Shown here piece after piece: positions 34,128 to 52,032 of a DNA stretch of 64,000 bases. Position numbers and translations under genes: made by a program. Source of the stretch: Chryseobacterium sp. BLS98 (GTDB taxonomy: Bacteria > Bacteroidota > Bacteroidia > Flavobacteriales > Weeksellaceae); contig NZ_LFNF01000002.1 in the NCBI RefSeq assembly GCF_001045445.1, positions 124,001 through 188,000 on the forward strand, read 5' to 3'. Below the pieces are notes generated by a model that had not been told where the DNA came from, searched no databases, and worked only from the letters and a program-made list of their open reading frames with translations. Numbering within the stretch: position 1 is the first letter of the stretch; every line of letters starts with the position of its first letter.

Positions 34128-34162
34128 GGAGACAACTATTTGATAGTTGTCTCTCTTTTTTT
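34128..34162 (+). terminator. Terminator downstream of tRNA-Arg
   Basis: A perfect 10-bp stem (GAGACAACTA / TAGTTGTCTC) with loop TTTGA is followed by a T-rich run. It ends the tRNA transcript and is conserved in the right repeat copy. Confidence 0.88.
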
Positions 34163-34312
34163 ACACATAAAAATCTCTCTATCAGGCTTTTACAGCCTGA
34201 CATTTTATAGTTTGAATTTTTTGACGTGAAATCCTTAGTCCACCTGAAACAGACAGTCTAAAAGTGCTCTATCAGAGATTTCATCGGTATTGAAGCGTAG
34301 TTTGAAATCCCA

Positions 34313-34477
34313 TTAAGGTTCTAGTATTTTTTCCTCTTTTGGCTTATTGTAACTTTTTGATACTAAATATAGTAATTCTAATATAATTTTAGCTTCTTTC
34401 TCATTTACCTGAACTCCATTCTTAGCTAAAAGAATAATCGCTTGTTCAACTGAAACATTCTTATCAATAAAATTCAT
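34313..34477 (-). CDS. Small 54-aa protein coupled to the recombinase
   Basis: A 54-aa reading frame too short for many gene finders. It starts at an ATG (34475-34477) that overlaps the recombinase stop region by 14 nt and reads MNFIDKNVSVEQAI, then LLAKNGVQVNEKEAKIILE and LLYLVSKSYNKPK. It is a helical, charged protein with no recognised domain. Selection on it is supported by the right repeat copy, where the central AKNGVQVNEKEAKIILELLYLV is nearly kept despite much DNA divergence. A role with the recombinase, such as a directionality factor, is an inference. Confidence 0.65.
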   Translation of the reverse strand: MNFIDKNVSVEQAIILLAKNGVQVNEKEAKIILELLYLVSKSYNKPKEEKILEP

Positions 34478-35954
34478 TTTTCTTATTAGTTTTTCGGTTA
34501 CTTTTTTTTGATAATATTTTTAAAAATGCTTGCTCCAAGTCCAAAGAAAGATCTCCTGTTTTATAATCAATATCAACTGGTGGAATAAGACTCACAAGAC
34601 TTTTTTTATCTGAGGTGTCAAACTCGGAAAATTTTCGAAAAACTTCGACTATTTCTTTATCTTCTATTTGATCCTTTTTATCAATAGCTTTTAATTTAAG
34701 AAAAATATCACGCGCTTCCTTCTTAAGATGCCTAATGTTAACTTGATTCTCTTTTTTTAATTCATTGTAGTCATCAATTTTTAATACTCCTGCTAAAAAC
34801 AACTTTCTGCCTCTAGAAAGAACTTGCCCCTCTTCTTTTATTTTTCTCTCAATTAAATTTTGATTGTACAAATAACTTGCTTTCAGTGTCTTTATATTCT
34901 GGTCTTGTAAAATACATTTAAATAAGTCAATTGTATTATTTGATAGTATTAATTGCTGAAGCTTATTTTGATAGCAATCATTCAGTAAAATTGCGTTTAT
35001 CCTTGTTCTACAGCGATCATGACAATGATAATATGGGTATTTTTTTGAGCTTCCTTGTGCAATACTTCCACTGAGTTTTCGATCGCAAACAGGACAAGTC
35101 AAAAAACCTCTAAGAAAAAACAGCTCTTTTAAATCATCTTTTTTTGAAGTAGTTTTTCTTTTTGTATTAATAACAGACTGAACTTGATAAAATAACGATT
35201 CAGATATTAAAGGTTCATGCAAACCTTTTATCATTTGTTCTTCATTAGATTTAAGTTTGACTGATATAAGCCCACAATAAATTGGATTCCGTAAAATTCT
35301 AAAGAAGTGTGACCGTGAACATATCAATCCTTTTTCATTAGCCATTTTCATTATTTCGGAAATCTTATGATCGTTCTGAGCAGCTTGATGAAAAGACCAC
35401 TTTATAATATCAGCTTCAGGCTCTTTAGGAGCAATAGTTTTTTTACCATCCATTAATGTCAAATTAATAAATCCAATAGGTGCTTTATTAGGATATCTAC
35501 CCATCAGCTTCGCTCGACGAATACCATTTGCTGTATTTTGAGCCCTTCTGGTATTTTCCGCCTCTGGAACAGCTAAGTATACAGCCAACATAACCGTGCT
35601 TTCCGGCACAGAGAAATCAATTGGTTGATCAATAGCCATTGCTGTCGTTTTATATTTTCGCAGCTTTCCAATCATTTCGTAAGCATATTCAACATTACGA
35701 CTGAATCTGTCCCATTTTATAAATAGTATGTTTTTATCTTCTCCTGATGATTTCTTTTTAATTTCTGAAAACAATTCTTTCCACTCAGGTCGGTTGAAAT
35801 TTTTGGCAGAATAGTCTTCCCGATAAATTCCTTTGACTTCTATATTGTTATATTTACAATATTTCAATAATCTATCCTCTTGCTCAGGCAGAGAGTAACC
35901 TTTTCTTTTTTGTTCATCTGTACTTACGCGGACATATAAATAAGCTGACTTCAT
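34464..35954 (-). CDS. Large serine recombinase/integrase
   Basis: A 496-aa recombinase. The resolvase domain begins MKSAYLYVRVSTDEQ with catalytic Ser11, and continues with KNILFIKWDRFSRN; a recombinase domain (residues about 160-270) and a zinc ribbon (CPVCDRKLSGS, YHCHDRCRTR) follow, then a coiled-coil region. The ATG at 35954 gives the normal N-terminus; a longer start would add 28 unrelated residues. It is the mobility gene of the island and sits beside tRNA-Arg, though serine integrases more often use protein genes. Confidence 0.93.
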   Translation of the reverse strand: MKSAYLYVRVSTDEQKRKGYSLPEQEDRLLKYCKYNNIEVKGIYREDYSAKNFNRPEWKELFSEIKKKSSGEDKNILFIKWDRFSRNVEYAYEMIGKLRKYKTTAMAIDQPIDFSVPESTVMLAVYLAVPEAENTRRAQNTANGIRRAKLMGRYPNKAPIGFINLTLMDGKKTIAPKEPEADIIKWSFHQAAQNDHKISEIMKMANEKGLICSRSHFFRILRNPIYCGLISVKLKSNEEQMIKGLHEPLISESLFYQVQSVINTKRKTTSKKDDLKELFFLRGFLTCPVCDRKLSGSIAQGSSKKYPYYHCHDRCRTRINAILLNDCYQNKLQQLILSNNTIDLFKCILQDQNIKTLKASYLYNQNLIERKIKEEGQVLSRGRKLFLAGVLKIDDYNELKKENQVNIRHLKKEARDIFLKLKAIDKKDQIEDKEIVEVFRKFSEFDTSDKKSLVSLIPPVDIDYKTGDLSLDLEQAFLKILSKKSNRKTNKKNEFY

Positions 35955-36297
35955 ATAATTAATGCATTTATTTGATTTACAAATTAATATTTTTAAGTAT
36001 ATGAAATGATAAACAAAAAACAATTTATGCTGTATCAATTAAAAAGGGAAATTCAGTAGAAAAATTGGTATAATTTGGAATTTGGTTACACATTAACAGT
36101 AAATCCTAATCATGCAAAGCTAGATCCTAAAGTGAGACAGGTAATATTTCACTTTTTTATAATCTCTGAAACTGTCAACCGTATATTATTCAGCTCTTCA
36201 TGCAATTCTCAAGATCCGTTCTCCATTAAGGTTTTCGTTATTTAAATGGTAATGAGCATTAATTAGTATTGATTTTAATTGACATTAAACTATCTTT
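35955..36297. other. Intergenic region between recombinase and hamB
   Basis: 343 bp, AT-rich. No start-to-stop ORF of useful size was found. A plus-strand reading frame near 36080-36160 (EFGYTLTVNPNHAKLDPK) could be a remnant of an unknown gene, with no start codon. No terminator or promoter was recognised. Confidence 0.4.
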
Positions 36298-38850
36298 TTA
36301 TAGTGTTCTTTTAATTTCTTCAAATTCTAGAGATGTTGATCTAAATTCATTTAGTAAAAGTGCTTTATTTACACCAACTAGTTTATTATCTTTCAATATC
36401 AAGGACTTTCTATGGTGTCTAAAAATTTTAATTGCAGTATTCCTAGACAACCCGATATTCTGCAAAGCTATCACCTGTGGTATTTGTGTTCCATATTCCA
36501 AGAGTGTTGCCCAATTATCTCCGGCTTTGCTCTCTCCTATAATAGCCACCAAAATTTGATAGTAATGATTGAAATACTTTTCTAGAATATAGCGAAGAAC
36601 ATATTCAATGTCATCGATAAGCTTCTCAATTAGAGCATTTATATGCCTTCTATTTGTCTTATCAAATACTTCATACACTCTAAAATCAACTTCTACCTGA
36701 TATCCATTATCATGATTGTAGTCGATAGATTGACTTATTATCTGGCTTAAAGAAAACCCCTGGACCCATTGGTTCATCAGCACCGCGTAGTATTTTAAAC
36801 TGTTTACATTTGCCAGCTTCTTTTCTGTTTTATCCCACGAATATAATCTGTGAAAATCGATCAATACTTTAAGGATACTCTCATATTTTATAGCTCCACT
36901 GTTAGGTAATATACTTTTTTTTGATTTTGATACAGCTTTGTAAATTCTTTCCTGAATATCAAAATTGATAGTTTGATTGAACTTCAAGATCGACTTTGGA
37001 ATCTCAAAATTAATAATCCCTTGCTTCGCCAAATCGATGAGCTTTTGCTTATTATCTTCAATTAACTTATCAATTATTGGACTTTTATAATTAGCTGTAG
37101 TTTCTAAAGTGTCAACTTTAATTATATTCGCAATATATTTTAATATTTCTTTCTCTACTTCAGAACCAGATTTTATCTCTTCATTTTTAAGTGCCTTTTC
37201 GATTTTTTTAAGATTATGATCAATCTTAGTCAGAATGGTAGGCTGCAGTTTAATATCCTTTCTTATCAAAACATCCTTGTCAACCCATTTAAAATCCTCA
37301 TACTGAACACAGAAAATATTTCCCACTAACTCTCTTGTCAATCTTCCTGCCCTTCCAGAAAGATTCCAAAAATCAATTGGTGACAAAGTTGTTTTCGAAC
37401 CACTTCTATTATCTATAATAAAAATATTCTGTGTAGGCATATTAACTCCTTCCAGTAATGTTGAAGTACAAAATACATAACGGATCTCTTCCTTTTGGTA
37501 TAAATCTTCGATCAAATTTCTTATCAACTGGGGCAATTTTCCATAGTGATATGCCACTCCTTTTTCTATAAAATCAACTAAATAATATTCCGGATGGATG
37601 TATTCTTTAATATTTTTTATTGCCTGCTCAACAAGTTCACTCTGCTCAATTCTTGGAAGTAACTTTGAAAGCTCAATTGCTTTATTCACCGTATTCCTCT
37701 TGGAATAACAATAGATGAGATTATTTTTATCAGCTCCAATAAACTTGATAAATTTTGTAATTGAATAATCCTTGCTATCATCAAGTATGTCCTGCAACTT
37801 TAAAACTGAATTATTGGAATAAGACTCAACCTCTTTAGTCTCAAGGTTAACAAAATAAATATTTTGAGATACGGGAGACTCTCCTGTTCTAAATGAATTT
37901 TGTATATCCCTATTGAACAGTCTCAAAAATATTTCAGGGTTGGAAACATTTGGGGAAGAAAAATACAATTTAACATTCCCATACTTTTTCTGAACTTTTT
38001 CAATAGCCGAATAAGTCGTAACACTACGGGCATCTTTATCATTTGCTAATTTGTGTGCTTCATCAATAAATAAAAAGCCTATTGGAGGATTTGTATCTTG
38101 TGACAAATAGCTAAGAAGCCGTTCTGGGGTTAAAACAAAAATATAATTGTATTTTTCTTCAGTTAAAATATCAGATACATTTGAATTAATAAAGATTTTA
38201 TATTTATAAGTGTCCAGAAGCTCATGAAGTTCATTTTTTAAATCAGAAAAAAATTGATTGATAAGAGCTCTGGTGGGTACAATGATTACGATATTTTCTG
38301 GTGGACTGTTCTTTATCACCTTTTTGATAAAAGATTTGATGATAAAAGACTTGCCCATGGAAGTCGGTCCGGAAAAACTAAACTCGGTACTTTTGGACAG
38401 CTTATTAAATAACTCAAATTGCGTGTCTGTAAAAATCATTCCGTTTCCATCCGGAGCCTGCTGTATCAATCGTTTAGATTCGGTTTCAATTTCCCTAAAA
38501 ATTGGGAGAAGTGCAATATTTTTGTTTTTATTTTCCAAATAATTAATCGCCGGAAAATTACCTAGTTTACTAAATATAGCTTTTGATACTGTTCTGTACA
38601 CTTCGTTATCTTTGTAATCTTGATTCAGAGAGGCAACAATTTGATAAGATCTATTTCTCGCATCAGAATTTTTAGAGTTGGATAAAATGTCTGCAAAACG
38701 CAAAGTGTCCCTCAACTCTTTTGTTGTAAATTGAACCCTGTTTGATTTTTTGAACAGGTTTTGCGCAGTTATCAAAGAACATTTATTAAACAAAGCATTG
38801 AAGTATTCATCTCGCAAAATATCCTCAGTCAGTTTATCGATAATTTTCAT
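36298..38850 (-). CDS. hamB: Hachiman defence helicase HamB
   Basis: An 850-aa superfamily-2 helicase. Walker A is FSGPTSMGKSF (about residues 158-169), the DEAH box is FIDEAHKL (about 262-269), SAT-like SSPNVSNPEI follows, and motif VI is NLSGRAGRLTRE. A long C-terminal helical part follows. The partner gene hamA (DUF1837) lies directly upstream. The ATG at 38850 overlaps its stop codon as TGATG, so ATG is preferred over a GTG at 38853. In Hachiman, HamB surveys DNA and releases the HamA nuclease on phage damage. Confidence 0.88.
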   Translation of the reverse strand: MKIIDKLTEDILRDEYFNALFNKCSLITAQNLFKKSNRVQFTTKELRDTLRFADILSNSKNSDARNRSYQIVASLNQDYKDNEVYRTVSKAIFSKLGNFPAINYLENKNKNIALLPIFREIETESKRLIQQAPDGNGMIFTDTQFELFNKLSKSTEFSFSGPTSMGKSFIIKSFIKKVIKNSPPENIVIIVPTRALINQFFSDLKNELHELLDTYKYKIFINSNVSDILTEEKYNYIFVLTPERLLSYLSQDTNPPIGFLFIDEAHKLANDKDARSVTTYSAIEKVQKKYGNVKLYFSSPNVSNPEIFLRLFNRDIQNSFRTGESPVSQNIYFVNLETKEVESYSNNSVLKLQDILDDSKDYSITKFIKFIGADKNNLIYCYSKRNTVNKAIELSKLLPRIEQSELVEQAIKNIKEYIHPEYYLVDFIEKGVAYHYGKLPQLIRNLIEDLYQKEEIRYVFCTSTLLEGVNMPTQNIFIIDNRSGSKTTLSPIDFWNLSGRAGRLTRELVGNIFCVQYEDFKWVDKDVLIRKDIKLQPTILTKIDHNLKKIEKALKNEEIKSGSEVEKEILKYIANIIKVDTLETTANYKSPIIDKLIEDNKQKLIDLAKQGIINFEIPKSILKFNQTINFDIQERIYKAVSKSKKSILPNSGAIKYESILKVLIDFHRLYSWDKTEKKLANVNSLKYYAVLMNQWVQGFSLSQIISQSIDYNHDNGYQVEVDFRVYEVFDKTNRRHINALIEKLIDDIEYVLRYILEKYFNHYYQILVAIIGESKAGDNWATLLEYGTQIPQVIALQNIGLSRNTAIKIFRHHRKSLILKDNKLVGVNKALLLNEFRSTSLEFEEIKRTL

Positions 38851-39743
38851 CACTCAACTATTTTTTCAATGATATGTTTTCTTTTATTTTGAAGGTCTGA
38901 GAAAGGAATGACATAGATATAAAACTGATACCCTGTATAGTCGCTTTTCTTTAGCTGATGATTTAACGAATTCTTCGCTTTAAGTACTTCTTTCTTGATC
39001 TTCTCTCTTATATTTTTGCGGAAGTCTGAATTACTAAGTTTGCTTTCGTCATCTGTAATGGGAATATCAAAGCCCAAAAATATTCCGAAGGAATAATCCA
39101 GATATGTATCATCCTCCTTTGCACTCGGAATTATGATCCTTTTTAGCATTTCATAAGTTGTCTGATCATAAGCCTCTTTAACGAGTTCACTATTGATTAG
39201 GTCAATTTCAAACTCCAACTTTGATGTGGATTTTAGAAATTTGCTAATTGACCCAAAAGCCTCGTATACACCTTTACTGATATCAGAGTTAAGTTTTGAT
39301 TCACCAAGAACGATTTGATAGTCTGTATCTGAGAGCTTTAAAAGGTGTACACCATCAGCTCCCTTGACATAATCATTGGAATTGGTTTTTAATTCCAATT
39401 TGGTAAGGATTTTTGGAGCATTTAAATGAGATTCAAGTAAACAGTATAATAAAATTTCGCCAAGTTCACCCTCGTTATCAGCATGATGTTTCAGTTTAGC
39501 TTTTGCCTTTTTTACAAGATCATTGAATTTATCTGCTTGTTTTAACTCATCAACTTGCTTACGAGAGAGAGCAAAATAACAAAGTTTGTTTCCAAGTTCA
39601 TTTATAAGCTCGTCATAGCTAAATGCGTTATTTTTGACCTTTAAAGTAAAAAGATTTAATGTATTATTATTTTCAAGCGCTTCATTGCACAAGTCATTAT
39701 AAAATAAATCTAAAAAATCATCTTTAATATTCTTCTCAATCAT
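38850..39743 (-). CDS. hamA: Hachiman defence nuclease HamA (DUF1837)
   Basis: A 297-aa protein with the DUF1837/HamA core: EGELGEILLYCLLESHL (Glu96), YVKGADGVHLL (Asp130) and IVLGESKLNSD (Glu148, Lys150). This D-(x)n-ExK arrangement is a PD-(D/E)xK nuclease active site, intact here. HamA is held inactive by HamB until phage-related DNA structures are met, then degrades DNA. The hamA-hamB order with a 1-nt overlap is the usual Hachiman layout. Confidence 0.9.
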   Translation of the reverse strand: MIEKNIKDDFLDLFYNDLCNEALENNNTLNLFTLKVKNNAFSYDELINELGNKLCYFALSRKQVDELKQADKFNDLVKKAKAKLKHHADNEGELGEILLYCLLESHLNAPKILTKLELKTNSNDYVKGADGVHLLKLSDTDYQIVLGESKLNSDISKGVYEAFGSISKFLKSTSKLEFEIDLINSELVKEAYDQTTYEMLKRIIIPSAKEDDTYLDYSFGIFLGFDIPITDDESKLSNSDFRKNIREKIKKEVLKAKNSLNHQLKKSDYTGYQFYIYVIPFSDLQNKRKHIIEKIVE

Positions 39744-40123
39744 TAACAGTTATATGGTATTAGTATGCACTAAGTTAATAAATTAGTACTTACAGTTGAT
39801 CCTTTATTTAATTTTCGTGCTAAAAATAAACTAAATTTCTATCGAATAACTACTGTTTCCCGTAATAGAATCCATAAAGCTTCACTCAAATCTATAATAC
39901 AACAGAAAGAAGTAACTAAACATAAGTTATAAGAGAAAACAATTTTAAAAACTTAGATTCTCAAAATAAAAAAATAAAGTAATCACTACCCGAATACTTA
40001 CAACAACTTTATAAAGCCCGTAATGAAATCTTACGGATTCCCTTTTCTGACATTTAGATTAAATTCTTACCTTGGATAATTCGAAACATAAAATTCCAAT
40101 TTAAAAAAGTCAATTCCCTAGTA
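39744..40123. other. Divergent intergenic region between hamA and the STAND gene
   Basis: 380 bp of very AT-rich sequence between divergent defence genes. A near-match to the -7 element (TACCTTGG, 40069-40076) lies about 50 nt before the STAND start. No repeat, terminator or hidden gene was recognised. Confidence 0.45.
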
Positions 40124-43100
40124 ATGAAAATAAATCCCAACAGCTCTATAAGAAGTGGATATAAATATGAAGATTTATTTACCTTAAAATTATGTGTAGA
40201 TTGGTTATTAGACCCAAAACTATACGAAAGTATTCGGATTCAGTATAAGCCGGAAGATATTGAAATTACGCATTTTGCGATTGATGACATTGTTGCACAA
40301 AGGAAAGACGGAGGAATCGAATACTACCAAATCAAGCATAAACAGAACCCAGAAACTGATTTGTGGGATTTTAACCAATTATTTAATAAAGGGCTATCCA
40401 AATGGATGAAATCATACTTCGCACTAAAAGAACCAAATATTTTTTGTAGTCTTATAACTAATGGAAATATTGCCCCTGAAATTGAACAATGCCTGCAAAA
40501 TGGATATTTGAATCCTTATAAAATTTTAGATGTCAATCCAGAATTTCTTGACAATCTGAAATCAATTTATACAGATCTAAACTTAATTAATATATTCTTT
40601 AGAGAGTTTTGCTTTCAATTTAATCAACCAAATAAAAAAGATCTGGAAGAAACTCTTCGAGAAATTTTATACAAACAATTAAAGGTTACTAAAGCCGGAG
40701 TTGATAGTCTTCTGCTTTTTATAGCGAATGAAGGAGCTGAAAAGCATCCGAAAACATTTACTTTAAGTGATATAAGATTACATCTATCGTGGGATAATCC
40801 CAGACCTTTAAATCAAAACTTTGAAATTCCTACAGACTTTGAGTTCTTCAACAAAAATACTCATCAAGATATTCTAAAGGACCTAACCAGTATAGACGGT
40901 GGGATTAAGGTATTTATAGGAAAACCTGGTAGTGGAAAAAGCACTTACTTATCTAAATTATATACATTACTTAAGAAAGAGAATACACTTGTATTTCGTC
41001 ACCATTATCACTTAAACCCGAAGGACAATTCATATGCTGATCGATTAAACTCGGAACGTGTAATTGAAGGCTTAAAAGCTGAATTTAAAAAACAGAAAAA
41101 TACCGTAATTAAATCGTTAGGTGAACAAAATACTGCGTTTACTCAATTAAAGGAGTTTATAGACCAAATTGCAGATTACTGCAGAAATGAAAATAAATCA
41201 TTTATTCTAATTATTGATGGATTAGATCATGTAATTCGAGAAGGAAATAGCCAAAGTCAACTTATAGAATTTCTAAATGAAGTTCTATATCCTCAAAAGG
41301 GGTATTGGTTAATTTTAGGAACACAAGAAATGGCGACAAACTGTTTTCCTAATATTATTAATCAATATGCACCTCGTAAGCAATGGATTGAAATTAAAGG
41401 ATTAAAAAGAGATAGTATAAAAAAGATAGCTATTAAAGCTTTTCCTAAAGACCACAAAGCATATGGTACTCATTTTGAGACAATCGTTTCAAAATTATCA
41501 CAGATTACTAAAGGTAACCCTCTACACTTAAGGTATGTTTTGACTGAAATAAAAAATTTAAAGAAAGGTATTTCGGAATTCGATTTAGACCGTATCCCTC
41601 ATTATAATACTGAAATTGAAGATTATTATAAGAGCCTATGGCAACAACTTTCTTCGTTAGCAAAGACTATTTCATTTGCGTTAACAAGCCTAGATTTTAA
41701 GTTGCAAGAAGAACAACTAATTTCTCTAGCATCTAATTTTTGTCAATACCCTTATGAGATTACAGACAGTTTTGCCCAAATTCGTCATTTATTCCGATTT
41801 GAGCTATCTGGCATATCAGTTTATCACAATAGTTTCCTTGTATTCATTCATAAGCAACCAGAGCTCAATGAACAAAAAATATTATTATATAGAATTCTAC
41901 AAAATTGGTTAAAAGAAAAGTCTCAATATCCACTTTGCTGGTCTGAACTGCCAAAAGTCGAATACTATTTAGGAAATCCAGATATGTTATTGTCTATTGA
42001 TAACTCTTGGATTGTCAACCAATATCTTGACTGTCATAGTGAAACTATTATTGAAAATATTTTGTATTTAGCAACAAAAGCTGCTTTTGAAACAAATCAA
42101 TTGGATAAACTTATATACTTCTCAATTGTTGAAAATCTATTTAGTAATAGATACTATAACTTGGATAAAACACTTGGTAATATATGGGCCATATCTTTTA
42201 AAACAAATAAAACCATCAATCTACAATATCCCGATTTTAGTGTTTTAACACATTACCAACTTGCTGAGATCGTCATTGCTCTCAAGAAAAAAGGAATAAC
42301 AAGCGTTATTCCCGAAGAAGCTATAGATCGAATTAATGAATTATTTACTGAAGCTAATCACGAAATTAATGAAATCGCAAAGTCTTGGCTTCAAATAGTT
42401 ATACATTATGATATTCCAACTAAAAGAATTTTCAAATTTATCAAACAATTCCGAGGCGATAAGCATGCAGCGCACTTTTTTAAATTTTACTTAGAAAAGC
42501 TATTTGAACAACTTCAACAACCAATTCGTCATGTTGAGGAAATTTTGAAAACTCAATTACTTGAAGAAGAAAAGGAGGCATTATCTGAGGTACTAATAGC
42601 TTATGATTTACAGAATGTAACTGCAACATGGGCACATCATATTGATACTCTGCTTCCAAAAGAAACACTCTTACAATTATTCTACAAGAGCCTTTTTGGT
42701 TACACAAATGGTAATATAGTTGAACTAATACCTTTAGACTCTTTTCCCATAAAAGTGCAATATCACTCTAGTGAATCAGAACCAATATTAGACTTACTCA
42801 AACATAATTTATTAGGAGCTTTTATTAATGCCTATATCGATTTAGGTGAGTTGCCCAATATAGAAATTATGGATAATGATCCAAACAAAATCTGGGTATC
42901 TGAAATGTATATTGCTATTTTAAGTGTTGCAAAATTATTATCTGATAAGACAAAGAATAAGAGCATTATAGATATTCAACATATTTTAAGTCCTATTGAA
43001 GATTTAGATATATTGAAATTTCCCAAAAATTATGATATCTACGAATATGGAAGAATTGGGATACCGTATATCATAGATTTTGTACTTTGGATGTCTTATA

Positions 43101-45967
43101 TAATTAATAAAAAGAATAACCATAATCATGAATTACAATATCAAGAATTAAATTACTTGAAAAATAATAAATGGTACAATAAAGCATCCCTGTTTACCCT
43201 TATTAATTCTAAACGGATAAAACCGAACAAAATTGCAGTTCAGCAATTTATAACAACTGAATTACAACAAATACAAAATGAGATTATTCCATTTACTGAA
43301 AAATGCGACTATATAACAGATTTAGCAATTTTAGCAACTACATCTGACAATAACGAATTAATAAGACCACTTCTTGAGAGAGCCACAGCTAATATTCTGG
43401 CCTATTCACACCATAAATATATGCTTCTTCATGATATTTTGGAAAGTATCGAAGTTTGTATTAATGCAGCATCAAATAAAAGTAAAGACTTTTTATTAAA
43501 AATTTTTCCGTACATACACAACATCGAAAAGTTAACAGACGGAGATGAAACCAGGCATTTCATAACTGTATTTTGTAAACTCTTAGCCAAAGTGGATCCT
43601 AAAATGCTTTACAACATTTATATGTACAATCTGTCTATCAGAGAATATGATAGAGTAGAAAGTACTTTTGATGATATATTACATACGTTGAATTTTGATG
43701 ATCCCATTTCAAAAGCCATTGGTAAGACCGCAGTCAATAACTTGGAAACCTTGAATGAATTGCAGAAAAGTGATACATCAATAAAAGACATAATAAATAA
43801 TTTGACAAGTAAGTTTGGAATAAATACAGCTACTCATAAACAATTAAAACAAGAGAAACTTGTAAGTAAAACAAACAAGGACCACAGTCATATTAAGCCA
43901 GAGGAGCTTAAAGAATATCTTGTAGTAAAAATGAATTTCATCAATGGTCATATTACATATTCTGAGTTATCATTTCTGAATAGTTGGCTTAACACTAGAT
44001 TAACAGCCTTTCCACAGGAAGAATATCAAATAATAAAAGTATTAAAGGAAATATTTAACAATAGATTTTCAAATATATCTGCCGAATTATTGGACGCTAT
44101 CTATCCTATTGCTTACAAATATGATAAAGAATTTGCATTCAACTGTATATGTTGGGCACAGTCTAATGGCAGTGGATGGTCTCCTACCTATATGCGTCGT
44201 ATGAAAGAATCTCAAAAAAGATGGAAAAATGTATTAAAAGACTATCCGGGGCGAGAACAGGAGTTTTATTCCGAAAGTGTAAAAAATACAGGCTTACATT
44301 ATGGCCAAGAAAAAAATTATAATGTTCCCATTCCCAAAAGTACACAATTTTATGTTGACTGTGGGGATATTTCAAAAGCTGAGAATATAACAAATTCTTA
44401 CCTCAATCTTTTACCTGAAATATTTCCAAACGTAGAATTACCCGTCCCAGACTTTTTCCTCAGTCCAGCAGAGATAACGCCTTTTGAAATTTTGTTATCT
44501 CGCCTAATGTGGATTAATCCAGTTACCAAGGCTAGCGCAGCTGAAGCAATAGCAGATATATTGGAAAATGATTTTGATGGGCAATATCATGAGCTATTTT
44601 TCGACTATCTTTTAGTACAATCTCTTGAAAATAGAGCTTGTGAAGGATTATTAATCCTAATTAAGTCCTTACAAAACATAAACTCTCTCACATTTAAATT
44701 TTTAAATCAAAATATATTAAACAATTTACTTTCTGTGCGATGTCTAGCAACTGATTTACTCATGCAAAACATCGCTGAAACCCTAAAATTAAAACTAAAT
44801 ATTACTAATCCATTATATTTTTACACTACTTCAGCAAAAACAGAACTAAATAGAGAAGACTTCCAGCACCTTGTAGGGCGAAATCTTCCTTTATGTTATA
44901 TAGATTATCTAGATTCTCTTCAACAAAAGGCTGGAAATTTTATTGATGTATGGAACGTTTGGTGTACTTCCTATGAAGAATATTGCCAAGACTTTGATTT
45001 AACATATGATAAAAGCATAGATGAAGATTACTCGAACAGTCAGTATAATATCATTACTGGTAGAACAACTGTGTTTGGAGACATTTTAAAATCGACATTT
45101 ATGAAATTGGTTGATTTTCTCTATAATTATAACTTGATTGATTCCAATGATCTATGGCATTACACTATCAAAAATTTACCAATTGATTATTCCTTGTGGA
45201 AAATAAAATTTACGCACTGTCCATCTTGGTGGCCTCAATTAAATATTAAAGATTCTAGAACAATTGAAGAGATTGATGATTATAAAACAGTATTAATAGA
45301 ATTTCTACAGAAAGATAATGATTCTATTGCGCTTTTTTTTAATGGTAATTTTTCACATGGTGACAATCATTATGATTCAAATGTATATTGCCAACTAAAA
45401 GCCTTTGCCTTTGCAACTCCTAAAACCAGTTCATTGCAAATGGAGGCAAAGCAATTATACAAACATATAGCAATGAGTGGTTTTTGGTATCCTGCTAATG
45501 CACATTTTCACAATTATGGAAGCTTAGATGGAAAATTGAGATTTCATCAAAATAACCAATCAAATCAGTATATACCACTGATTAGCGAAATAAGGACATT
45601 AGCTAATAATATGTGGCAATACTATCGAATGAAAGATAATATAGTATTGCTATCTCCTATTTTCGATCAAGAAACACGGCTTGATTACAGCTCAGGTATA
45701 CTTACATTTACAAAGGACCAAAATGAGATAGCATCATTTAACGATTTTCTATTAAATTTTAAAGATACTAGCCACTATGGTACACCAACCCCTTATAATA
45801 GTTATTTAATTATAGATCGAAAATATTTAAGGAGTTTCTTGAAAAAGAAAAACTTAACTCTATCATTTGTTATAAAACAAAAAATTAGTGTTAAAGACCG
45901 CATGAACAGGGATGATTTATATAATTCAACAAACTCTTATAAAATTATACATTTGAATGATTTTTAA
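40124..45967 (+). CDS. Avs-like STAND NTPase with N-terminal Cap4-like nuclease (1947 aa)
   Basis: A single 1947-aa gene. Residues 1-200 resemble the Cap4/DUF4297 dsDNA endonuclease: a GYKYEDLFTLKLCVDWLL helix, IDDIVAQRKDGG (Asp54, Asp55) and EYYQIKHKQ (Gln69, Lys71). A STAND/NACHT P-loop follows, with Walker A FIGKPGSGKST (266-273 core) and Walker B FILIIDGLDHV (about 360-369), then GTQEMATN and KGLKR segments. About 1300 helical residues, likely a repeat-type sensor, make the C-terminus. This matches the AVAST (Avs2/Avs3-like) plan but the length is greater and the C-terminus is not a family I recognise. Confidence 0.8.
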   Translation: MKINPNSSIRSGYKYEDLFTLKLCVDWLLDPKLYESIRIQYKPEDIEITHFAIDDIVAQRKDGGIEYYQIKHKQNPETDLWDFNQLFNKGLSKWMKSYFALKEPNIFCSLITNGNIAPEIEQCLQNGYLNPYKILDVNPEFLDNLKSIYTDLNLINIFFREFCFQFNQPNKKDLEETLREILYKQLKVTKAGVDSLLLFIANEGAEKHPKTFTLSDIRLHLSWDNPRPLNQNFEIPTDFEFFNKNTHQDILKDLTSIDGGIKVFIGKPGSGKSTYLSKLYTLLKKENTLVFRHHYHLNPKDNSYADRLNSERVIEGLKAEFKKQKNTVIKSLGEQNTAFTQLKEFIDQIADYCRNENKSFILIIDGLDHVIREGNSQSQLIEFLNEVLYPQKGYWLILGTQEMATNCFPNIINQYAPRKQWIEIKGLKRDSIKKIAIKAFPKDHKAYGTHFETIVSKLSQITKGNPLHLRYVLTEIKNLKKGISEFDLDRIPHYNTEIEDYYKSLWQQLSSLAKTISFALTSLDFKLQEEQLISLASNFCQYPYEITDSFAQIRHLFRFELSGISVYHNSFLVFIHKQPELNEQKILLYRILQNWLKEKSQYPLCWSELPKVEYYLGNPDMLLSIDNSWIVNQYLDCHSETIIENILYLATKAAFETNQLDKLIYFSIVENLFSNRYYNLDKTLGNIWAISFKTNKTINLQYPDFSVLTHYQLAEIVIALKKKGITSVIPEEAIDRINELFTEANHEINEIAKSWLQIVIHYDIPTKRIFKFIKQFRGDKHAAHFFKFYLEKLFEQLQQPIRHVEEILKTQLLEEEKEALSEVLIAYDLQNVTATWAHHIDTLLPKETLLQLFYKSLFGYTNGNIVELIPLDSFPIKVQYHSSESEPILDLLKHNLLGAFINAYIDLGELPNIEIMDNDPNKIWVSEMYIAILSVAKLLSDKTKNKSIIDIQHILSPIEDLDILKFPKNYDIYEYGRIGIPYIIDFVLWMSYIINKKNNHNHELQYQELNYLKNNKWYNKASLFTLINSKRIKPNKIAVQQFITTELQQIQNEIIPFTEKCDYITDLAILATTSDNNELIRPLLERATANILAYSHHKYMLLHDILESIEVCINAASNKSKDFLLKIFPYIHNIEKLTDGDETRHFITVFCKLLAKVDPKMLYNIYMYNLSIREYDRVESTFDDILHTLNFDDPISKAIGKTAVNNLETLNELQKSDTSIKDIINNLTSKFGINTATHKQLKQEKLVSKTNKDHSHIKPEELKEYLVVKMNFINGHITYSELSFLNSWLNTRLTAFPQEEYQIIKVLKEIFNNRFSNISAELLDAIYPIAYKYDKEFAFNCICWAQSNGSGWSPTYMRRMKESQKRWKNVLKDYPGREQEFYSESVKNTGLHYGQEKNYNVPIPKSTQFYVDCGDISKAENITNSYLNLLPEIFPNVELPVPDFFLSPAEITPFEILLSRLMWINPVTKASAAEAIADILENDFDGQYHELFFDYLLVQSLENRACEGLLILIKSLQNINSLTFKFLNQNILNNLLSVRCLATDLLMQNIAETLKLKLNITNPLYFYTTSAKTELNREDFQHLVGRNLPLCYIDYLDSLQQKAGNFIDVWNVWCTSYEEYCQDFDLTYDKSIDEDYSNSQYNIITGRTTVFGDILKSTFMKLVDFLYNYNLIDSNDLWHYTIKNLPIDYSLWKIKFTHCPSWWPQLNIKDSRTIEEIDDYKTVLIEFLQKDNDSIALFFNGNFSHGDNHYDSNVYCQLKAFAFATPKTSSLQMEAKQLYKHIAMSGFWYPANAHFHNYGSLDGKLRFHQNNQSNQYIPLISEIRTLANNMWQYYRMKDNIVLLSPIFDQETRLDYSSGILTFTKDQNEIASFNDFLLNFKDTSHYGTPTPYNSYLIIDRKYLRSFLKKKNLTLSFVIKQKISVKDRMNRDDLYNSTNSYKIIHLNDF

Positions 45968-46293
45968 AATTTGATAAATCTCTTGGAAGAAACAATACTA
46001 TTAACTACTAGTAATATCCAAAAACAAGCGGAGTAGCCCGATTTATGTGACCAGGAGATTCAGCTAATAATTGTAAAAATATATAATAATTTTATGCTGG
46101 CAAAAACATCAGGACAGTAACAATATGAGAAAGGTTACCCATAAATGCTTTAGGATGAATTTCAAAGCATTGAAAAACTATTTCTATTTTACCTAACAGT
46201 ATCCAAACCGAGACAATATTTTATAAAATTATAATTATCAAATACATACACCTAAAATACATTCAAGATCTTTTAAATTAAAACTAGTTTTAT
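45968..46293. other. Intergenic region between the STAND gene and abiH
   Basis: 326 bp, AT-rich, without a convincing ORF. It holds an inverted repeat AATGCTTT / AAAGCATT (46144-46171, loop 12 nt), without a T-run. No clear promoter for abiH. Confidence 0.45.
46144..46171. repeat. Small inverted repeat before abiH
   Basis: Perfect 8-bp arms AATGCTTT and AAAGCATT around a 12-nt loop. There is no T-tract, so it may be an operator or a weak terminator. Confidence 0.5.
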
Positions 46294-47196
46294 ATGAATA
46301 GACTTTATATAATTGGGAATGGATTCGATAGATATCACAATCTTCCCACAGGATATAGTGATTTTCACCAATTTGTTATCAAAAATCATCCAAGTTTAGA
46401 GAATACTTTCGAAGAATATTTTAAATTAAGCACGAAATTAAGTGCTGATAATAAAAACCTTTGGGCAGACTTTGAAAACGATTTAAGCACATTTAATTGG
46501 AAAGCTTTCTTTGACGACAAAAATCAAATTGATGTACTTGACGATAGTTTTAGACCAAGTTTAATCTATAGTCTTGAAGATGATTTAGAACAAGAAACTG
46601 AGATTTTAATCAGCAGTATTAGAGAAGCATTTGAAGATTGGCTAACTGATTTAAGTTTAGAATCAACCAAAAAAAAACTTCATTTTGAAGAAGATTCAAT
46701 TTTCTTGAACTTCAATTATACATTAACCCTAGAAGAAGTTTATCAAATTCCAAGTGAAAAGATATTACATATACATGGAGATGTTGAGAATAATCAAGGA
46801 TATTTAATTTTTGGACATAATAAAAACCTAAAAGCAAAACCAAAATTTGATAAATATGGAGAAACGACGCGAACTCCATTTTCTGATTCTGAAGCCAATG
46901 CGCAGCAGCCTTTTTACAGATTCCAAAAACCTGTAAGAGATATTATTCGTGACAATGAATGCTTCTTTAAAAATCTACATGACATCAATGAAATAATAAT
47001 TTTAGGACATTCACTTAATATAATCGATCTCCCATATTTTAAAAAAATTAAAAAATATGTTGCTGACTTATCAAGATGGAAAGCCAGCTTTTATAGTGAT
47101 GGAGAAAAGGAAAGCCATTTAAAAAGTCTCCAAAAAATCGGAATAGATGAATCTAAAATAGAGTTTTTTAAAATATCTGATTACGATTTACTTTAG
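46294..47196 (+). CDS. abiH: AbiH-family abortive-infection protein
   Basis: A 300-aa protein with the AbiH family pattern: LYIIGNGFDRYHNLPTGYSDF at the N-terminus (a nucleotide-binding-like GNGFD), LNFNYTLTLEEVY (138-150), ILHIHGDVENNQGYLIFGHN (157-176) and IIILGHSLNIIDLPYF near 235. AbiH stops phage growth by an unknown mechanism; its motif spacing resembles SIR2-like proteins. Length is normal. It starts a three-gene run; the next gene begins 24 nt downstream. Confidence 0.9.
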   Translation: MNRLYIIGNGFDRYHNLPTGYSDFHQFVIKNHPSLENTFEEYFKLSTKLSADNKNLWADFENDLSTFNWKAFFDDKNQIDVLDDSFRPSLIYSLEDDLEQETEILISSIREAFEDWLTDLSLESTKKKLHFEEDSIFLNFNYTLTLEEVYQIPSEKILHIHGDVENNQGYLIFGHNKNLKAKPKFDKYGETTRTPFSDSEANAQQPFYRFQKPVRDIIRDNECFFKNLHDINEIIILGHSLNIIDLPYFKKIKKYVADLSRWKASFYSDGEKESHLKSLQKIGIDESKIEFFKISDYDLL

Positions 47197-47220
47197 CAAA
47201 CATTCAATTTATCAATTATT

Positions 47221-48159
47221 ATGGAATATAGTTTTAGAGAAAAAAATTACAAGGTTTCCAGATTTAAAACCTTCCTGACAAATCAATTAAAAACGCAACC
47301 AATTGAAACAGTTTTTAATCTTCTAATCGAGTTCATAGAGCAAAATGATTTTAAATTTAATGACCTCTTAGCAATTCTAGACAGATACATTGATTATTCA
47401 AAAAAAATAGGCCTTGGAAATGAAAACGTGTTTGCTTTTGTTGATAGTAAAATCAAAAAACTATCTGAGCCTAACAACACCGAAATCCTGTTACCTGTAT
47501 TCACTTTACATCACAAAATTGAATCTAAATATGCATTGAATTCCATTGAAGAAAATCTCGGAAAAATATTTAATAACACAAAAGAGAAAGTGTCAGTATT
47601 ATTATTAAAGACAGACATACTCTTAGAAAATAAAGAATTTGACAATGCTTTTTCAGTACTTAGAGATTGCTCTAATCAATCTTATAATTTGAACATTTTC
47701 GATTCTTTAGAATTGAAAAGAACAATCTACGAAAAGATGGCAATCATCGGTGAATTGGAGAATAAGAGTAATGTTGCAATTAACTATTTTATCTACTATA
47801 GTGCTTTCCAAGCAAGTGTAGAATTCTTGCATTTCCCCTATTTAGACACCTATCGGAATTTTAGAATTCCTTATTCGATACTTGAAAATCCTGAACAGGA
47901 AATTATTCAAATAAATAAACATTTGAAAGCAAAAAATTTGGACATCCGTTCGTTTAATTCTTTTTTACAAGAACTGTATCACAATGAAATTCCAAAAGCA
48001 TTTAATCTCGAAAAAATTGATATTGATACTTTTACTATCTCAAATTTATCAATAAAAGATTTGACTTACTACTCTAGTTATCTTTCGACACTTTCCGTTA
48101 GAGAATTAGTTTCAACAATAGAAGTATTAATCTTACAGAAGATGAAAGACATTCTGTAG
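47221..48159 (+). CDS. Unknown helical protein in the abiH operon
   Basis: A 312-aa cytoplasmic protein with no signal or membrane segment. It is largely helical with pairs of amphipathic helices (IETVFNLLIEFIEQNDFKF, LLLKTDILLENKEFDNAFSVL) that look like degenerate TPR repeats in the first 170 residues, then a distinct C-terminal part with YRNFRIPYSILENPEQEI. No catalytic motif was found. The gene lies between abiH (24 nt upstream) and the next gene (21 nt downstream), the same codon style, so an adaptor or sensor for AbiH is possible. Confidence 0.65.
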   Translation: MEYSFREKNYKVSRFKTFLTNQLKTQPIETVFNLLIEFIEQNDFKFNDLLAILDRYIDYSKKIGLGNENVFAFVDSKIKKLSEPNNTEILLPVFTLHHKIESKYALNSIEENLGKIFNNTKEKVSVLLLKTDILLENKEFDNAFSVLRDCSNQSYNLNIFDSLELKRTIYEKMAIIGELENKSNVAINYFIYYSAFQASVEFLHFPYLDTYRNFRIPYSILENPEQEIIQINKHLKAKNLDIRSFNSFLQELYHNEIPKAFNLEKIDIDTFTISNLSIKDLTYYSSYLSTLSVRELVSTIEVLILQKMKDIL

Positions 48160-48180
48160 ATATACTATAAAATACAATCT

Positions 48181-48876
48181 ATGACAAAAGAAGAATTAAA
48201 TAATGAGCTTGGCTCGGAAGACTACAAAATTGAACTAGACAGACTCTACATACTGCGAAGTTCAATGATACAATGTTTAATGTTCTGCTATCTCAATTCT
48301 GTCAGAGACGGAATAAGTCAGGAAAAAAATTTTTTCTTAAGAATGATTGATGATATCTCTCAAAGTATTGTTTCTATCAATTCTTTGGCGAAGGATGGGA
48401 TCTCAAATACTTGTTTAAGAGAGTTAAGATACTTAATTGAAGTTGCTATTAAAAGTTGTTTTATTGTGAGAAACTCTAATAAAGATACATTTGTTGAGCA
48501 AATTAAAGAATATGAAAAACTATTAAACTCCTCCAATATTAATCAAATAAATACATTAGAGTTTTACTATCTTGATGATTTCAATGAAGATTTTAAAACG
48601 GAAGCTAAAAAGCTTTACGGATTTTTATCAAAATACACTCATGCCAGTTCGTACCAGTTAATGGAAAGACTGAACAGAAATATTATTGGCAGAACTATTG
48701 GATTTGAAGGTACTAAGGAGCTTAAAGAATTAAACAACACTATAGAAAAAGTTTATTCAGTAGTTATTGTATTAATCTTTCATTCGGTAGCGCAATATGT
48801 TCCTGGAGATTTTTTGGTAGAACAAACGGGAAAACGATTGATTGGTATTTTACAAAATCTAAATATATTTCCTTAA
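48181..48876 (+). CDS. Unknown HEPN-like (DUF5677-like?) protein in the abiH operon
   Basis: A 231-aa helical protein. The conserved-looking elements CLRELRYLIEVAIKSCFIV and KLYGFLSKYTHASSY recall DUF5677-type and HEPN-like helical proteins, in which a late Arg/His pair sits near the dimer interface; here YTHAS has the His but I do not see a clear R-x4-6-H. It is the third gene of the abiH run. The function is unknown; toxin-like or sensor-like roles are only suggestions. Confidence 0.6.
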   Translation: MTKEELNNELGSEDYKIELDRLYILRSSMIQCLMFCYLNSVRDGISQEKNFFLRMIDDISQSIVSINSLAKDGISNTCLRELRYLIEVAIKSCFIVRNSNKDTFVEQIKEYEKLLNSSNINQINTLEFYYLDDFNEDFKTEAKKLYGFLSKYTHASSYQLMERLNRNIIGRTIGFEGTKELKELNNTIEKVYSVVIVLIFHSVAQYVPGDFLVEQTGKRLIGILQNLNIFP

Positions 48877-49019: not shown

Positions 49020-49946
49020 TTACAAAATACCTAATTCATTTAAAATGTCTTTTTTAACTTTACTAAATGGCCTTTTGCTAAAGTCAGCTTCTTTAGAATA
49101 CGTACCGAATACAATTCGATAAATGTCGTCATAATCAAAATCTAATTTTTCATATTTTTCCACCAATTCAATAAGATATCTTTGCGAGAAACGATGACGG
49201 ATATCGAATATATCTTTTAATTCTTCTGAGTGCGCACTGAAGATTTCGTTCAACCTAAATACTTCGGAAGAGTTTTCTATCCTTTGATTTAAAACTGCAT
49301 CAGAACTGGTCGGCATTAATTTAACTCCAAGATGAGCAGAACCACCCAGTATTGCACTTACTGTATATGGCAAATATTGATATTTATAGTCAGAAATAAC
49401 ATCATCAACATAGGGATGAATATTTTCTGATAGTAAAAACTTTTTGGTATGCTTCAAGGTACTGTTACACGTTTTACAGCTTGGAATTAGATTATAAACA
49501 GACAAAGCAAGCAGCGGATAATCATCTTGATCAAAAAAATGATCGAATTCGGGTCTTATGAATTTATCATCCTTTCCCGAACCCTTATCTACTGTCAGCG
49601 TATAATTTCTATTGCAATAAAGGCAGGTACGAATTTGAAGTTTAGCAGCTAAAGCATAAGCATCATATCTATTATTTCCTTTAGCCGTAAAATATTTATA
49701 GTTAAAGATTTTTTTTATTTTAGGCTTCAGCGAATTTTTATATGCTCTGTGCCCTAAAAGCAAATCATTTATATTTTTTAGATCTTCTGGCTTAGAGACA
49801 AGTATATCTTCAAGTTTGCTTTCAATAAAATCTTTCAACAATCTGTTCAAATTACTTTCTCTTATCTTACGTAATAAATAAGGTTTTAAACTATCACGAT
49901 GCTCTTGGATAATGTCGGCTCTTGAAGACAAATCAAAATATATCAT
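49020..49946 (-). CDS. Septu-like HNH endonuclease (PtuB-type)
   Basis: A 308-aa nuclease. Zinc Cys pairs are at 108/111 (CLYCNRNYT) and 157/160 (SCKTCNS). The HNH core is RPEFDHFFDQDDYPLLALS (Asp135, His136) followed by YNLIPSC (Asn152). This compact Cys-flanked HNH with an adjacent ATPase is the PtuB pattern of Septu systems and of some retron effectors. It lies 4 nt downstream of the ATPase gene, so the pair is one operon. No reverse transcriptase is nearby, which favours Septu. Confidence 0.8.
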   Translation of the reverse strand: MIYFDLSSRADIIQEHRDSLKPYLLRKIRESNLNRLLKDFIESKLEDILVSKPEDLKNINDLLLGHRAYKNSLKPKIKKIFNYKYFTAKGNNRYDAYALAAKLQIRTCLYCNRNYTLTVDKGSGKDDKFIRPEFDHFFDQDDYPLLALSVYNLIPSCKTCNSTLKHTKKFLLSENIHPYVDDVISDYKYQYLPYTVSAILGGSAHLGVKLMPTSSDAVLNQRIENSSEVFRLNEIFSAHSEELKDIFDIRHRFSQRYLIELVEKYEKLDFDYDDIYRIVFGTYSKEADFSKRPFSKVKKDILNELGIL

Positions 49947-49950
49947 ACAC

Positions 49951-52032
49951 TTACATTTTATTCAACCTATTTTGGATTTCTTCCAACTCAATTTGTAATA
50001 GTTTTTTTGCTAGATCAGTTTTCATTTTTTCAGAATACATCTGAGCAAGCTTACGTTGAATAATTGGCTCATCTATTTTCTCAATAAGAATTCTATGAAG
50101 CTCTTGGTCAGCCTTATCATTCTCATCTCTAAGCCAATCGATGGTTTTATTTATTTTACTGTCTGAAAATTCACCAATCAGACCATCACTAATAAAGAAT
50201 GAATCCGCAAATAAATCAGAAACATTAGCCCCAAACGTTCTCTTTTTACTTGTAGATATTATTGTTTTCTGATCTTCTGCTTTATCCAAAAAAATCACAT
50301 TTTCAAATAATACATCCGAAAGTGTTAAGGGATCGTGAGTTGAAAAAATTATTTGTAAAGATGGAGCATCCTTTCCCGTACTTTCCCAATTTTTCAGTGC
50401 TGCATTATATTTTAATGGTTTTAATTCTGAAAATAAAATGGGTAACACAGTTGTGATAGCTAGAACAAATTTTTTCTTCCACAATGGATGATATCCTAAT
50501 TCAGGCTCATCTAAAAGTAGCACTAAATGTTCTTTACAAATTTGCTTATGTCGTTTATTTTCTATCACATAAGAATAAAATGAAGAAAATAGGTCTAAAA
50601 GTACTTTTTCGCCGTTTGATAATTTTTTATCCGGACTAAAATCAAACAAAACAGCCTCATTCCCACGATTATAACGGCTAAGAATAGTGATTATTTCTTT
50701 ATAAAGCTCATTAAAATCGGAAAATGTCTTATATTCTTTTTCAAAATCAAATGATATTGATTCCCCTTCTGTGTATAGAGCAGTCATAAAAGAATAAAAC
50801 TTTTTTATTTTCGTAAAATCTTCTACATTTTTGATAATCCCCCTTTTTACTGGTGCAAATTCAACACTTCCAAAACTATGAAACTTATCCTCCTTAATAA
50901 TTTTGATTATTTCATCACTATTTTGTAAAGAGACTCTACCAAAGTTACTTATGAAAATATCATGTAGTAAATCACTCTTTTGAATAATATACTGCGTCAA
51001 AAGCTGATCTAAACGTTGTTCGAAATTCTCTGCTTTTAAAAAATCATCAAAATTGTAGGGTGCTCCCAAACCATTTTGTACAAAAACAGCCCCCGCCTGC
51101 AAATAGCTCAAGATAAGGACTTCAACATCTTTAATTATATTCTTCTGATCATGGATTTTATTGGATTGATCCTGTGGTAGATACTCTGGGATGTCCCAAA
51201 TCTGTTTTAGTTTTTCTGTAAAGCTATCTGCTTTTAGATATCTTAAATAGTCTTTATACTCATTAATAACATCTTCTTTTCTTCTTGTAATAGTTTCCTC
51301 CGGAATGGTTTCAAGCGTTTGTATTGTACGGTTTAACTCATGAACCAGAGTATCTCCTCTATTAGGATTTCCAAAATTTGATAAAACATAAGTTTCCATA
51401 AAGTAATCTTTAGTAAAATTATGTGCGCTCAGCGTTAGAACTTTATAATTAGGAAAATCTGGATAAGACTCAATAATTTTTGGTATCAGGCTACTTCCCA
51501 TCAATAACCCTTGCTGGTGTAAGGATTTCAAGTAATATTGCTGAAGTGAAGAATCAAATTTAGATGATGGATTCACTGGAGATCTTGCTGATTTCAGTTC
51601 AAAATCTATTATAGGAGAATAATATAGTATATTTAAAAAGTCCCAATTTGTTACAACTTCAATATTTTCTGGTGCAACGATTTCTTTTTTTGTCTGATTA
51701 ATAATTTTTGTGATTACTCTACCATTGATAATTTCCTCCCATACAAACAATGATCCTTGCGACAATTGATCAATTGGATAATTGAATTGTCTCATAATCG
51801 AACTTTTCCCAGCTCCGTTTTTTCCAACAATTGCTGATACTAAATCAATGTCTTTGCCATAAAAATTTTGAATAAAACTTACATTTTGTCGTATTTCTGA
51901 TAAAATAATTGAATTCTCATCCTCTAAAAAAATGTAGTCATTATAACCACCTAGCTGCAATAAGGTGCCTATTTCAGTATGGTCGAAAAGGTGTTCGAGA
52001 GATTTTTTCGGAATATAAACTGTTGTAATCAT
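49951..52032 (-). CDS. Septu-like SMC/OLD-type ATPase (PtuA-type)
   Basis: A 693-aa ATPase: Walker A AIVGKNGAGKSSI (residues 68-79), a long coiled or helical insertion, the ABC signature LSNGEKVLLDLFSSF, Walker B LVLLLDEPELGYHPLWKKKF and the H-loop QIIFSTHDPLTLSDVLF. In Septu, PtuA forms a ring or dimer that holds the PtuB nuclease and releases it on infection. The 4-nt gap to the HNH gene supports this pairing. It is longer than classical PtuA, closer to the second (Septu-like) group. Confidence 0.8.
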   Translation of the reverse strand: MITTVYIPKKSLEHLFDHTEIGTLLQLGGYNDYIFLEDENSIILSEIRQNVSFIQNFYGKDIDLVSAIVGKNGAGKSSIMRQFNYPIDQLSQGSLFVWEEIINGRVITKIINQTKKEIVAPENIEVVTNWDFLNILYYSPIIDFELKSARSPVNPSSKFDSSLQQYYLKSLHQQGLLMGSSLIPKIIESYPDFPNYKVLTLSAHNFTKDYFMETYVLSNFGNPNRGDTLVHELNRTIQTLETIPEETITRRKEDVINEYKDYLRYLKADSFTEKLKQIWDIPEYLPQDQSNKIHDQKNIIKDVEVLILSYLQAGAVFVQNGLGAPYNFDDFLKAENFEQRLDQLLTQYIIQKSDLLHDIFISNFGRVSLQNSDEIIKIIKEDKFHSFGSVEFAPVKRGIIKNVEDFTKIKKFYSFMTALYTEGESISFDFEKEYKTFSDFNELYKEIITILSRYNRGNEAVLFDFSPDKKLSNGEKVLLDLFSSFYSYVIENKRHKQICKEHLVLLLDEPELGYHPLWKKKFVLAITTVLPILFSELKPLKYNAALKNWESTGKDAPSLQIIFSTHDPLTLSDVLFENVIFLDKAEDQKTIISTSKKRTFGANVSDLFADSFFISDGLIGEFSDSKINKTIDWLRDENDKADQELHRILIEKIDEPIIQRKLAQMYSEKMKTDLAKKLLQIELEEIQNRLNKM

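Follow-up and report, generated by a model that had tools for sequence, protein, structure and literature searches.

A 1947-aa protein encoded in the window (the whole 64,000-nt stretch of Chryseobacterium sp. BLS98 DNA analysed, to which all coordinates refer) is probably a one-gene anti-phage system in which a STAND sensor belonging to the Avs1 lineage carries a fused Cap4-type nuclease in place of the Avs1b protease. The protein has the corresponding domain order, conserved active sites and kinship to Avs1b; no Avs1a or Avs1c accompanies it, and its gene moves as a one-gene unit within a defence island. The gene and its parts are as follows:

40124..45967, + strand: whole gene for the 1947-aa Cap4–STAND–sensor protein (ATG start, ORF intact)
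40124..40708, + strand: Cap4-type nuclease domain, residues 1–195 (Pfam Cap4_nuclease); the region shared with Avs1b begins only downstream
40283..40336, + strand: catalytic residues of the nuclease, D54-D55 ... Q69-x-K71, unchanged in all 17 aligned rows, that of the window protein included
40811..41923, + strand: residues 230–600, comprising the NACHT/STAND ATPase core and a winged helix (NACHT in 17 of 17 members, NCBIfam Avs1b in 16 of 17; tree)
40919..40942, + strand: Walker A GKPGSGKS, residues 266–273 (motif reading, alignment)
41210..41227, + strand: Walker B IIDGLD, residues 363–368 (motif reading, alignment)
41513..41530, + strand: GNPLHL, residues 464–469, which we take to be the STAND-type GxP motif (G464, P466 and L467 the same in all 17 members)
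41948..43630, + strand: sensor part homologous to the Avs1b sensor at profile level, residues 609–1169
43403..43558, + strand: sensor signature Y-x-x-H-K ... TDGDETRH, residues 1094–1145, aligned with GPSWYKEDQ ... SGEMTFQRY of Avs1b
44459..45964, + strand: C-terminal module, residues about 1446–1947, which corresponds to a gene of its own on several plasmids
39933..46132, no strand assigned: self-contained unit made up of the gene and its flanks (∼190 bp on the upstream side, 165 bp on the downstream side), shared with C. endalhagicum at 97.0% identity

A sequence-only reading of this DNA had described a nuclease, a P-loop and a Walker B motif in the order found in Avs proteins, and both the intact ORF and an alignment of 17 members ranging from Chryseobacterium to Klebsiella bear this out. 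Besides the four nuclease residues, the alignment showed P268, G269, G271, K272 and S273 of the P-loop, D365-G366-L367-D368 of Walker B, G464-x-P466 and H568-x-S570 to be invariant. Pfam placed NACHT and ATPase_2 at residues 260–470 of the window protein, which, with its Walker A, Walker B and GxP motifs, has the attributes of a STAND/NACHT NTPase. The Cap4-type nuclease proposed by the same reading (PF14130) is supported by its invariant motif, with a borderline Pfam score: a single-protein scan matched residues 10–81 (E 8e-4) at 20.0 bits against a cut-off of 26.2, while the search of the whole genome gave the stretch 24.9 bits, or 26.7 with its frame neighbours, which was counted as reaching the gathering score. 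At E<=0.01, NACHT was matched by all 17 members and Cap4 by seven.

The STAND gene is present in one copy in its own genome. Comparison with the C. endalhagicum gene gave a dN/dS of 0.18 (0.176) overall and 0.09 (0.086) for the STAND core; the gene is therefore kept by selection. The value was 0.23 for the nuclease (four changes only), 0.19 for residues 601–1190, 0.33 for 1191–1440 and 0.22 for 1441–1947. Between the copies of genomes G010 and G290 it was 0.13 overall, and between those of a Klebsiella plasmid and E. coli it was 0.44, from few changes.

Library searches returned one strong NCBIfam match, to Avs1b (E 6.6e-19), which covered residues 339–580 only, its 66.6 bits falling short of the curated cut-off of 1500; the full-length match to a described Avs subtype that had been looked for was thus absent. 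This Avs1b model was matched by 16 of the 17 members at E<=0.01, and Avs2, Avs4 or other Avs models of NCBIfam by none of them. The library used includes the Avs2 (NF041813) and Avs4 (NF041815) models, and the window's own genome yielded no match to the former at E<=0.001 or to the latter at E<=1e-10; membership in Avs2 or Avs4 was accordingly rejected. No Avs3 or Avs5 name appeared among the NCBIfam or PADLOC matches, models of both being possibly absent from these libraries. With PADLOC, the best match of the window protein had an E of 0.093; its Avs1b model, PDLC02159, was unmatched by the window protein at E<=0.1 and was matched by an intermediate E. coli plasmid protein at 3.4e-24. No Pfam, PADLOC or NCBIfam model matched residues 600–1947 at E<=0.05. 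The claim that the C-terminal 1300 residues match no family therefore holds for single-sequence library searches, but not for profile–profile comparison, which links residues 609–1169 to the Avs1b sensor.

These comparisons (percentages below are theirs unless identity is stated) involved five Avs1b-type proteins, four of them beside annotated avs1a and avs1c and the fifth from genome G201; six members, G347 included, of an unnamed family of Cap4-like STAND proteins of 2021–2065 aa; and the nuclease-STAND family to which the window protein belongs, represented by a 16-row profile that omits a truncated Moraxella copy and the interrupted copy of G155. The sequence-only reading had remarked that the protein is long, but the Avs1b-type proteins measure 1910–1942 aa and its length is not exceptional within the group. 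When sensors alone were compared, the nuclease-STAND family matched the unnamed family at 95.9% (E 5e-9) over 544 columns, the two sensors being collinear from their beginning, and Avs1b matched the unnamed family at 96.3% (E 1.9e-9, 897 columns). The nuclease-STAND family compared directly with Avs1b gave no significant match (0.6%, E 0.1), no better than shuffles. A merged profile of the nuclease-STAND family, the unnamed family and G550 matched the Avs1b sensor at 95.6% (E 1.2e-8, 547 columns, residues 609–1169 of the window protein, 9% identity); its reversed control reached 0.1% and the best of 30 block shuffles 2.3%. Across all four sensor-only comparisons, reversed controls stayed at or below 1.3% and the sets of 30 block shuffles at or below 4.4%. 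At full length, the merged profile matched Avs1b at 100% (E 1.4e-46); the 924 aligned columns span both the STAND core and the sensor. Residues ∼609–1169 are thus, as shown by way of the intermediate family, distantly homologous to the Avs1b sensor. The label 'unrecognised sensor half' falls for this part and stands for the last ∼500 residues, for which Avs1b offers no counterpart (0.5%).

Avs2 was represented by four proteins matching its model, three of them over the curated cut-off. The merged profile matched them at 42% (42.1%; E 3e-4) over 199 columns of the ATPase core, and the nuclease-STAND family profile at 23.7% over part of that core; the merged sensor gave no match to the Avs2 sensor (0.4%). 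The ATPase core is akin to that of Avs1b rather than that of Avs2.

The best-conserved stretch of the sensor, Y-x-x-H-K ... TDGDETRH, lies in its Avs1-like half. Its counterpart contains KD in the unnamed family and reads RGYGYRKD ... FTDGTETKW in G550. In the signature region the merged sensor profile also matched a Pseudanabaena protein (96.7%) and one of the archaeon Halobaculum (94.2%). Matches to a Moraxella (79.6%) and a Pseudoalteromonas translucida (78.5%) protein were weaker; all four, like the weaker profile matches in general outside the four sensor-only comparisons, come without shuffle controls. A Leptospira protein, at 23.8% and likewise without such a control, was considered unconvincing. 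None of these five proteins matched the Avs1b sensor profile directly.

A single-sequence search of the PDB returned nothing at E<=1, and a profile search returned 10 chance-level matches at E<=10, the best at 0.034. The structure prediction recommended by the sequence-only reading was run with AlphaFold2 on two sensor parts, from three input sequences, and both models were poor (pLDDT 52.7 and 41.8). In the first, low-confidence model (pLDDT 52.7), the part spanning residues 609–1169 is predicted to be almost all-helical. Foldseek found for it no PDB fold at E<=0.001 among the 50 matches listed, which comprised helical-repeat and other large proteins, mostly eukaryotic. Since the models are poor and no Foldseek match reached that threshold, no sensor fold is claimed.

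The C-terminal module (residues ∼1446–1947) has its counterpart in a separate gene of 458–481 aa that follows a first gene of 1450–1494 aa on plasmids of Roseibium, Cupriavidus, P. aeruginosa, Klebsiella and Azonexus. The two genes overlap by 1–10 bases in four of these five cases; in P. aeruginosa, with the start as annotated, a gap separates them. Profiles of all fused and all split forms matched at 99.8% (E 1e-29, 465 columns), and the Bacteroidetes rows alone matched the split form at 82.4% over residues 1446–1705 only. A link of the module to Avs1c or to the C-terminus of Avs1b was looked for by profile comparison and not found (0.5% for Avs1b, as above); with the unnamed family there was a weak collinear match, at 61.8% without a shuffle control. 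The module probably helps in target recognition or holds the resting state. The fused and two-gene forms offer a natural dissection of a giant immune receptor, and the sensor motif a target for mutation. The second gene of the two-gene form (L040 13452-14828; L041 13386-14828) is annotated as a 'multidrug DMT transporter permease', a label that its homology to the module does not support. Behind the genes for related STAND proteins of ∼1580 aa lies, with an overlap, a gene of ∼290 aa (L057 9851-10723; L059 9836-10699), which is another split arrangement; that gene showed no match to the C-terminal module (0.4%).

Inspection of the host family identified matches at E<=1e-10 in eight of 296 genomes. 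Seven of these, the window's own included, hold members of the nuclease-STAND family, one of them interrupted, and the eighth (G201) holds an Avs1b-type protein. The other six members are 97 to 47% identical to the window protein; C. endalhagicum carries a 97% copy of the gene, and a Myroides relative stands at 47%. Further, residues 1–329 matched at 100% the end of contig NZ_QNVT01000012.1, which places the window's genome in C. pennae or very close to it. The G155 copy is split by an insert of ∼1.3 kb, and an ORF within this insert is apparently present again further along (equal length, first 25 residues alike). In a sample of the phylum, three of 395 genomes matched at E<=1e-20, namely the window's own, G550 and G347. 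Out of 72,556 plasmid records, 38 also gave a match; at no single site did a match extend over 80% of the query, and many were confined to the nuclease-STAND part or belonged to neighbouring families. Fused forms of 1922 aa were found in Klebsiella and Serratia, and one of 1907 aa in Pseudoalteromonas; the Klebsiella-type gene was present, on the chromosome, in four of 5426 E. coli genomes, and NZ_CP054388.1 carries an E. coli chromosomal relative of it. No relative was detected among 50,697 phage records, nor among viral contigs in two scans. Profiles of the Bacteroidetes and the fused proteobacterial proteins matched at 100% (E 3e-76) over columns 1–1705, the last ∼240 columns having no confident alignment.

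HamA lies upstream of the STAND gene on the other strand, and AbiH downstream. The neighbouring features are:

36298-39743, − strand: Hachiman pair adjoining the STAND gene, HamB (851 aa) and HamA (297 aa)
46294-47196: AbiH, in the AbiH-side block
47221-48159 and 48181-48876: two unnamed ORFs, in the AbiH-side block
49020-52032, − strand: HNH and AAA ATPase pair (PADLOC candidates PDC-M62A/B; weaker PtuA/PtuB matches)

In the two gaps flanking the STAND gene, no ORF longer than 38 aa offers itself as a candidate avs1c. Relative to C. endalhagicum, positions 39933-46132 are kept between exchanged neighbours: the Hachiman side is replaced there, and the AbiH-side block (46133-48792) is absent, its flanks abutting at L010 14006/14007. 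Similarly, the copies on a Klebsiella plasmid and on an E. coli chromosome have in common a 6023-bp block, at 99%, comprising the gene and little else. The STAND gene is a self-contained one-gene mobile unit in a shuffled defence island.

Several further observations concern these loci. HamA contains GESK, in line with the D-GEXK motif described in PMC12799240. Other HamB-like helicase pairs adjoin the STAND copies of C. endalhagicum and G262, and one adjoins the Avs1b-type gene of G201. Another very large ORF, of 1958 aa, lies at 21186-27062 (− strand) of the window. A repeat of ∼370 bp (76%) occurs at 34094-34462, between a tRNA-Arg gene (34049-34123) and a large serine recombinase (34464-36038), and again at 63161-63521; the two copies are perhaps ends of mobile elements. 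A flank of 3.7 kb (95.5%), common to L038 15223-18984 and L049 19571-23318, adjoins the 2021-aa STAND gene of an E. coli plasmid (L038) and the Klebsiella-type STAND gene on an E. coli chromosome (L049); this site is perhaps one hotspot holding alternative STAND sensors.

From the biology of Avs systems, we infer phage-protein binding, ATP-driven assembly and DNA cutting. A protein produced by the infecting phage, most likely a target of Avs1-type sensors such as the large terminase, would bind the helical sensor; ATP-bound STAND domains would then oligomerise, and the N-terminal nucleases would come together and cut the double-stranded DNA of phage and host, stopping the infection with or without cell death. 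Avs1-4 are described in PMC12931631 as acting via nuclease effectors upon sensing terminase, portal or Ksap1, and EpiAvs1 in PMC12799240 as activated by phage terminase. Because EpiAvs1 responds to terminase, residues 609–1169 are distantly homologous to the Avs1b sensor and this shared half holds the best-conserved stretch, a terminase-like target is plausible; terminase is our best guess for the trigger, with about an even chance of being right. The protein may nevertheless have a new target, as suggested by the sequence-only reading, since the last ∼500 residues could carry a different specificity. If they recognised another phage protein, the nuclease-STAND alarm itself would be unchanged. 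The lack of a detectable Avs1b counterpart for this module, its existence as a separate gene in several lineages, the low conservation between Bacteroidetes relatives of segments that include residues 801–900, 1201–1300 and 1701–1800, and the sensing of an early-expressed jumbo-phage protein by Avs5 (PMC12931631) all agree with such a trigger, but the best-conserved part of the sensor, with TDGDETRH, is in the Avs1-like half, and we regard a trigger other than terminase as possible but rather doubtful.

Two other readings depart further from an anti-phage nuclease. The presence of relatives on plasmid records, many of them with the nuclease-STAND part only or in neighbouring families, and their absence from phage records would suit a defence against plasmids or other mobile elements; the window neighbours, however, belong to anti-phage families (HamA, HamB, AbiH, PDC-M62A/B), and Avs1, the closest known relative, is anti-phage according to PMC12799240, which makes this use unlikely. 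That the protein is a non-defence STAND regulator of its host appears very improbable given the conserved nuclease motif, the mobility as a one-gene unit and the patchy presence, both in the host family and, for the Klebsiella type, in E. coli; NACHT domains are nevertheless present in regulators too.

The anti-phage reading, with a fused nuclease, bears on how Avs1 receptors acquired their effectors. The part shared with Avs1b begins at about residue 194 in the window protein and about residue 156 in Avs1b. The latter is a trypsin-like protease that activates a separate MBL nuclease, Avs1a, and in AVAST, Hachiman and other systems a protease together with its pro-nuclease is reported to have been gained time and again (Tuck et al. 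2025, PMC12799240). The main text of that paper does not mention 'Cap4', and the sections consulted contain no statement on the effector of an Avs1 receptor in the absence of the protease–nuclease pair. In a midpoint-rooted STAND tree of 31 rows (near-duplicates G208, Kmi, PaA and X_Agr omitted), the nuclease-STAND family formed the starred clade, of 15 rows, and Avs1b grouped with the unnamed 2021–2065-aa family and one long-branched Leptospira protein (support 88/87). Visual inspection of the remaining lineages (excluding the detached G155 piece) showed Cap4-like D-D and QxK motifs at their N-termini; the protease-type Avs1b is therefore the exception in the sampled tree. A protease–nuclease pair replacing a fused nuclease would be consistent with the tree and the N-termini, the order of exchange being unproven because of the midpoint root and the 88/87 support of the Avs1b fork. 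A wider proposal, offered tentatively and rated a little short of even, is that the Avs1 sensor lineage consists of old, widespread single-chain nuclease-STAND receptors of bacteria and archaea with a K-D/E ... DGxxT-like core; the protease-type Avs1b would derive from them through a mobile nuclease–protease pair that displaced the fused Cap4-type nuclease, while the present family and its two-gene form would keep the older state, with a separable C-terminal recognition subunit. A sensor akin to that of Avs1 but bearing its own nuclease gives a hint of how Avs1 could have exchanged its effector, and the family suggests a state of Avs1 receptors without the protease pair, in which a similar sensor is wired directly to a nuclease.

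Avs2 (NF041813) follows the plan of an N-terminal effector, a STAND core and a helical sensor, an order seen in the window protein as well, but the profile alignment is confined to part of the ATPase core and does not extend to the sensor. The unnamed 2021–2065-aa family (E. coli plasmid WP_072643907, Sinorhizobium, Nitrosococcus and others) is the bridge from the nuclease-STAND family to Avs1b: nuclease N-terminus, STAND and sensor align with it (100%, E 4e-40, 1094 columns), while identity in the STAND region is ∼22% and the C-terminal modules are weakly alignable. The two-gene form of Cupriavidus pMOL28 (WP_011514896 and WP_011514895) is a member of the nuclease-STAND family, WP_011514896 sharing 31–33% identity with the fused proteins of Klebsiella and Pseudoalteromonas; it differs in having the C-terminal 458–481 residues on the second gene. 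Avs1 (AVAST type 1) comprises the MBL nuclease Avs1a, the trypsin-STAND protein Avs1b, and Avs1c. The window protein has a Cap4-type nuclease where Avs1b has its N-terminal trypsin-like protease, a C-terminal module without detectable relation, no Avs1a upstream or Avs1c downstream, and no match at the curated 1500 bits. It shares with Avs1b a similar total length and, at profile level only and via the intermediate family, a STAND core and first ∼560 sensor residues that are homologous and collinear. Judged by its sequence, it is a nuclease-armed relative of Avs1 rather than a full member of that system.
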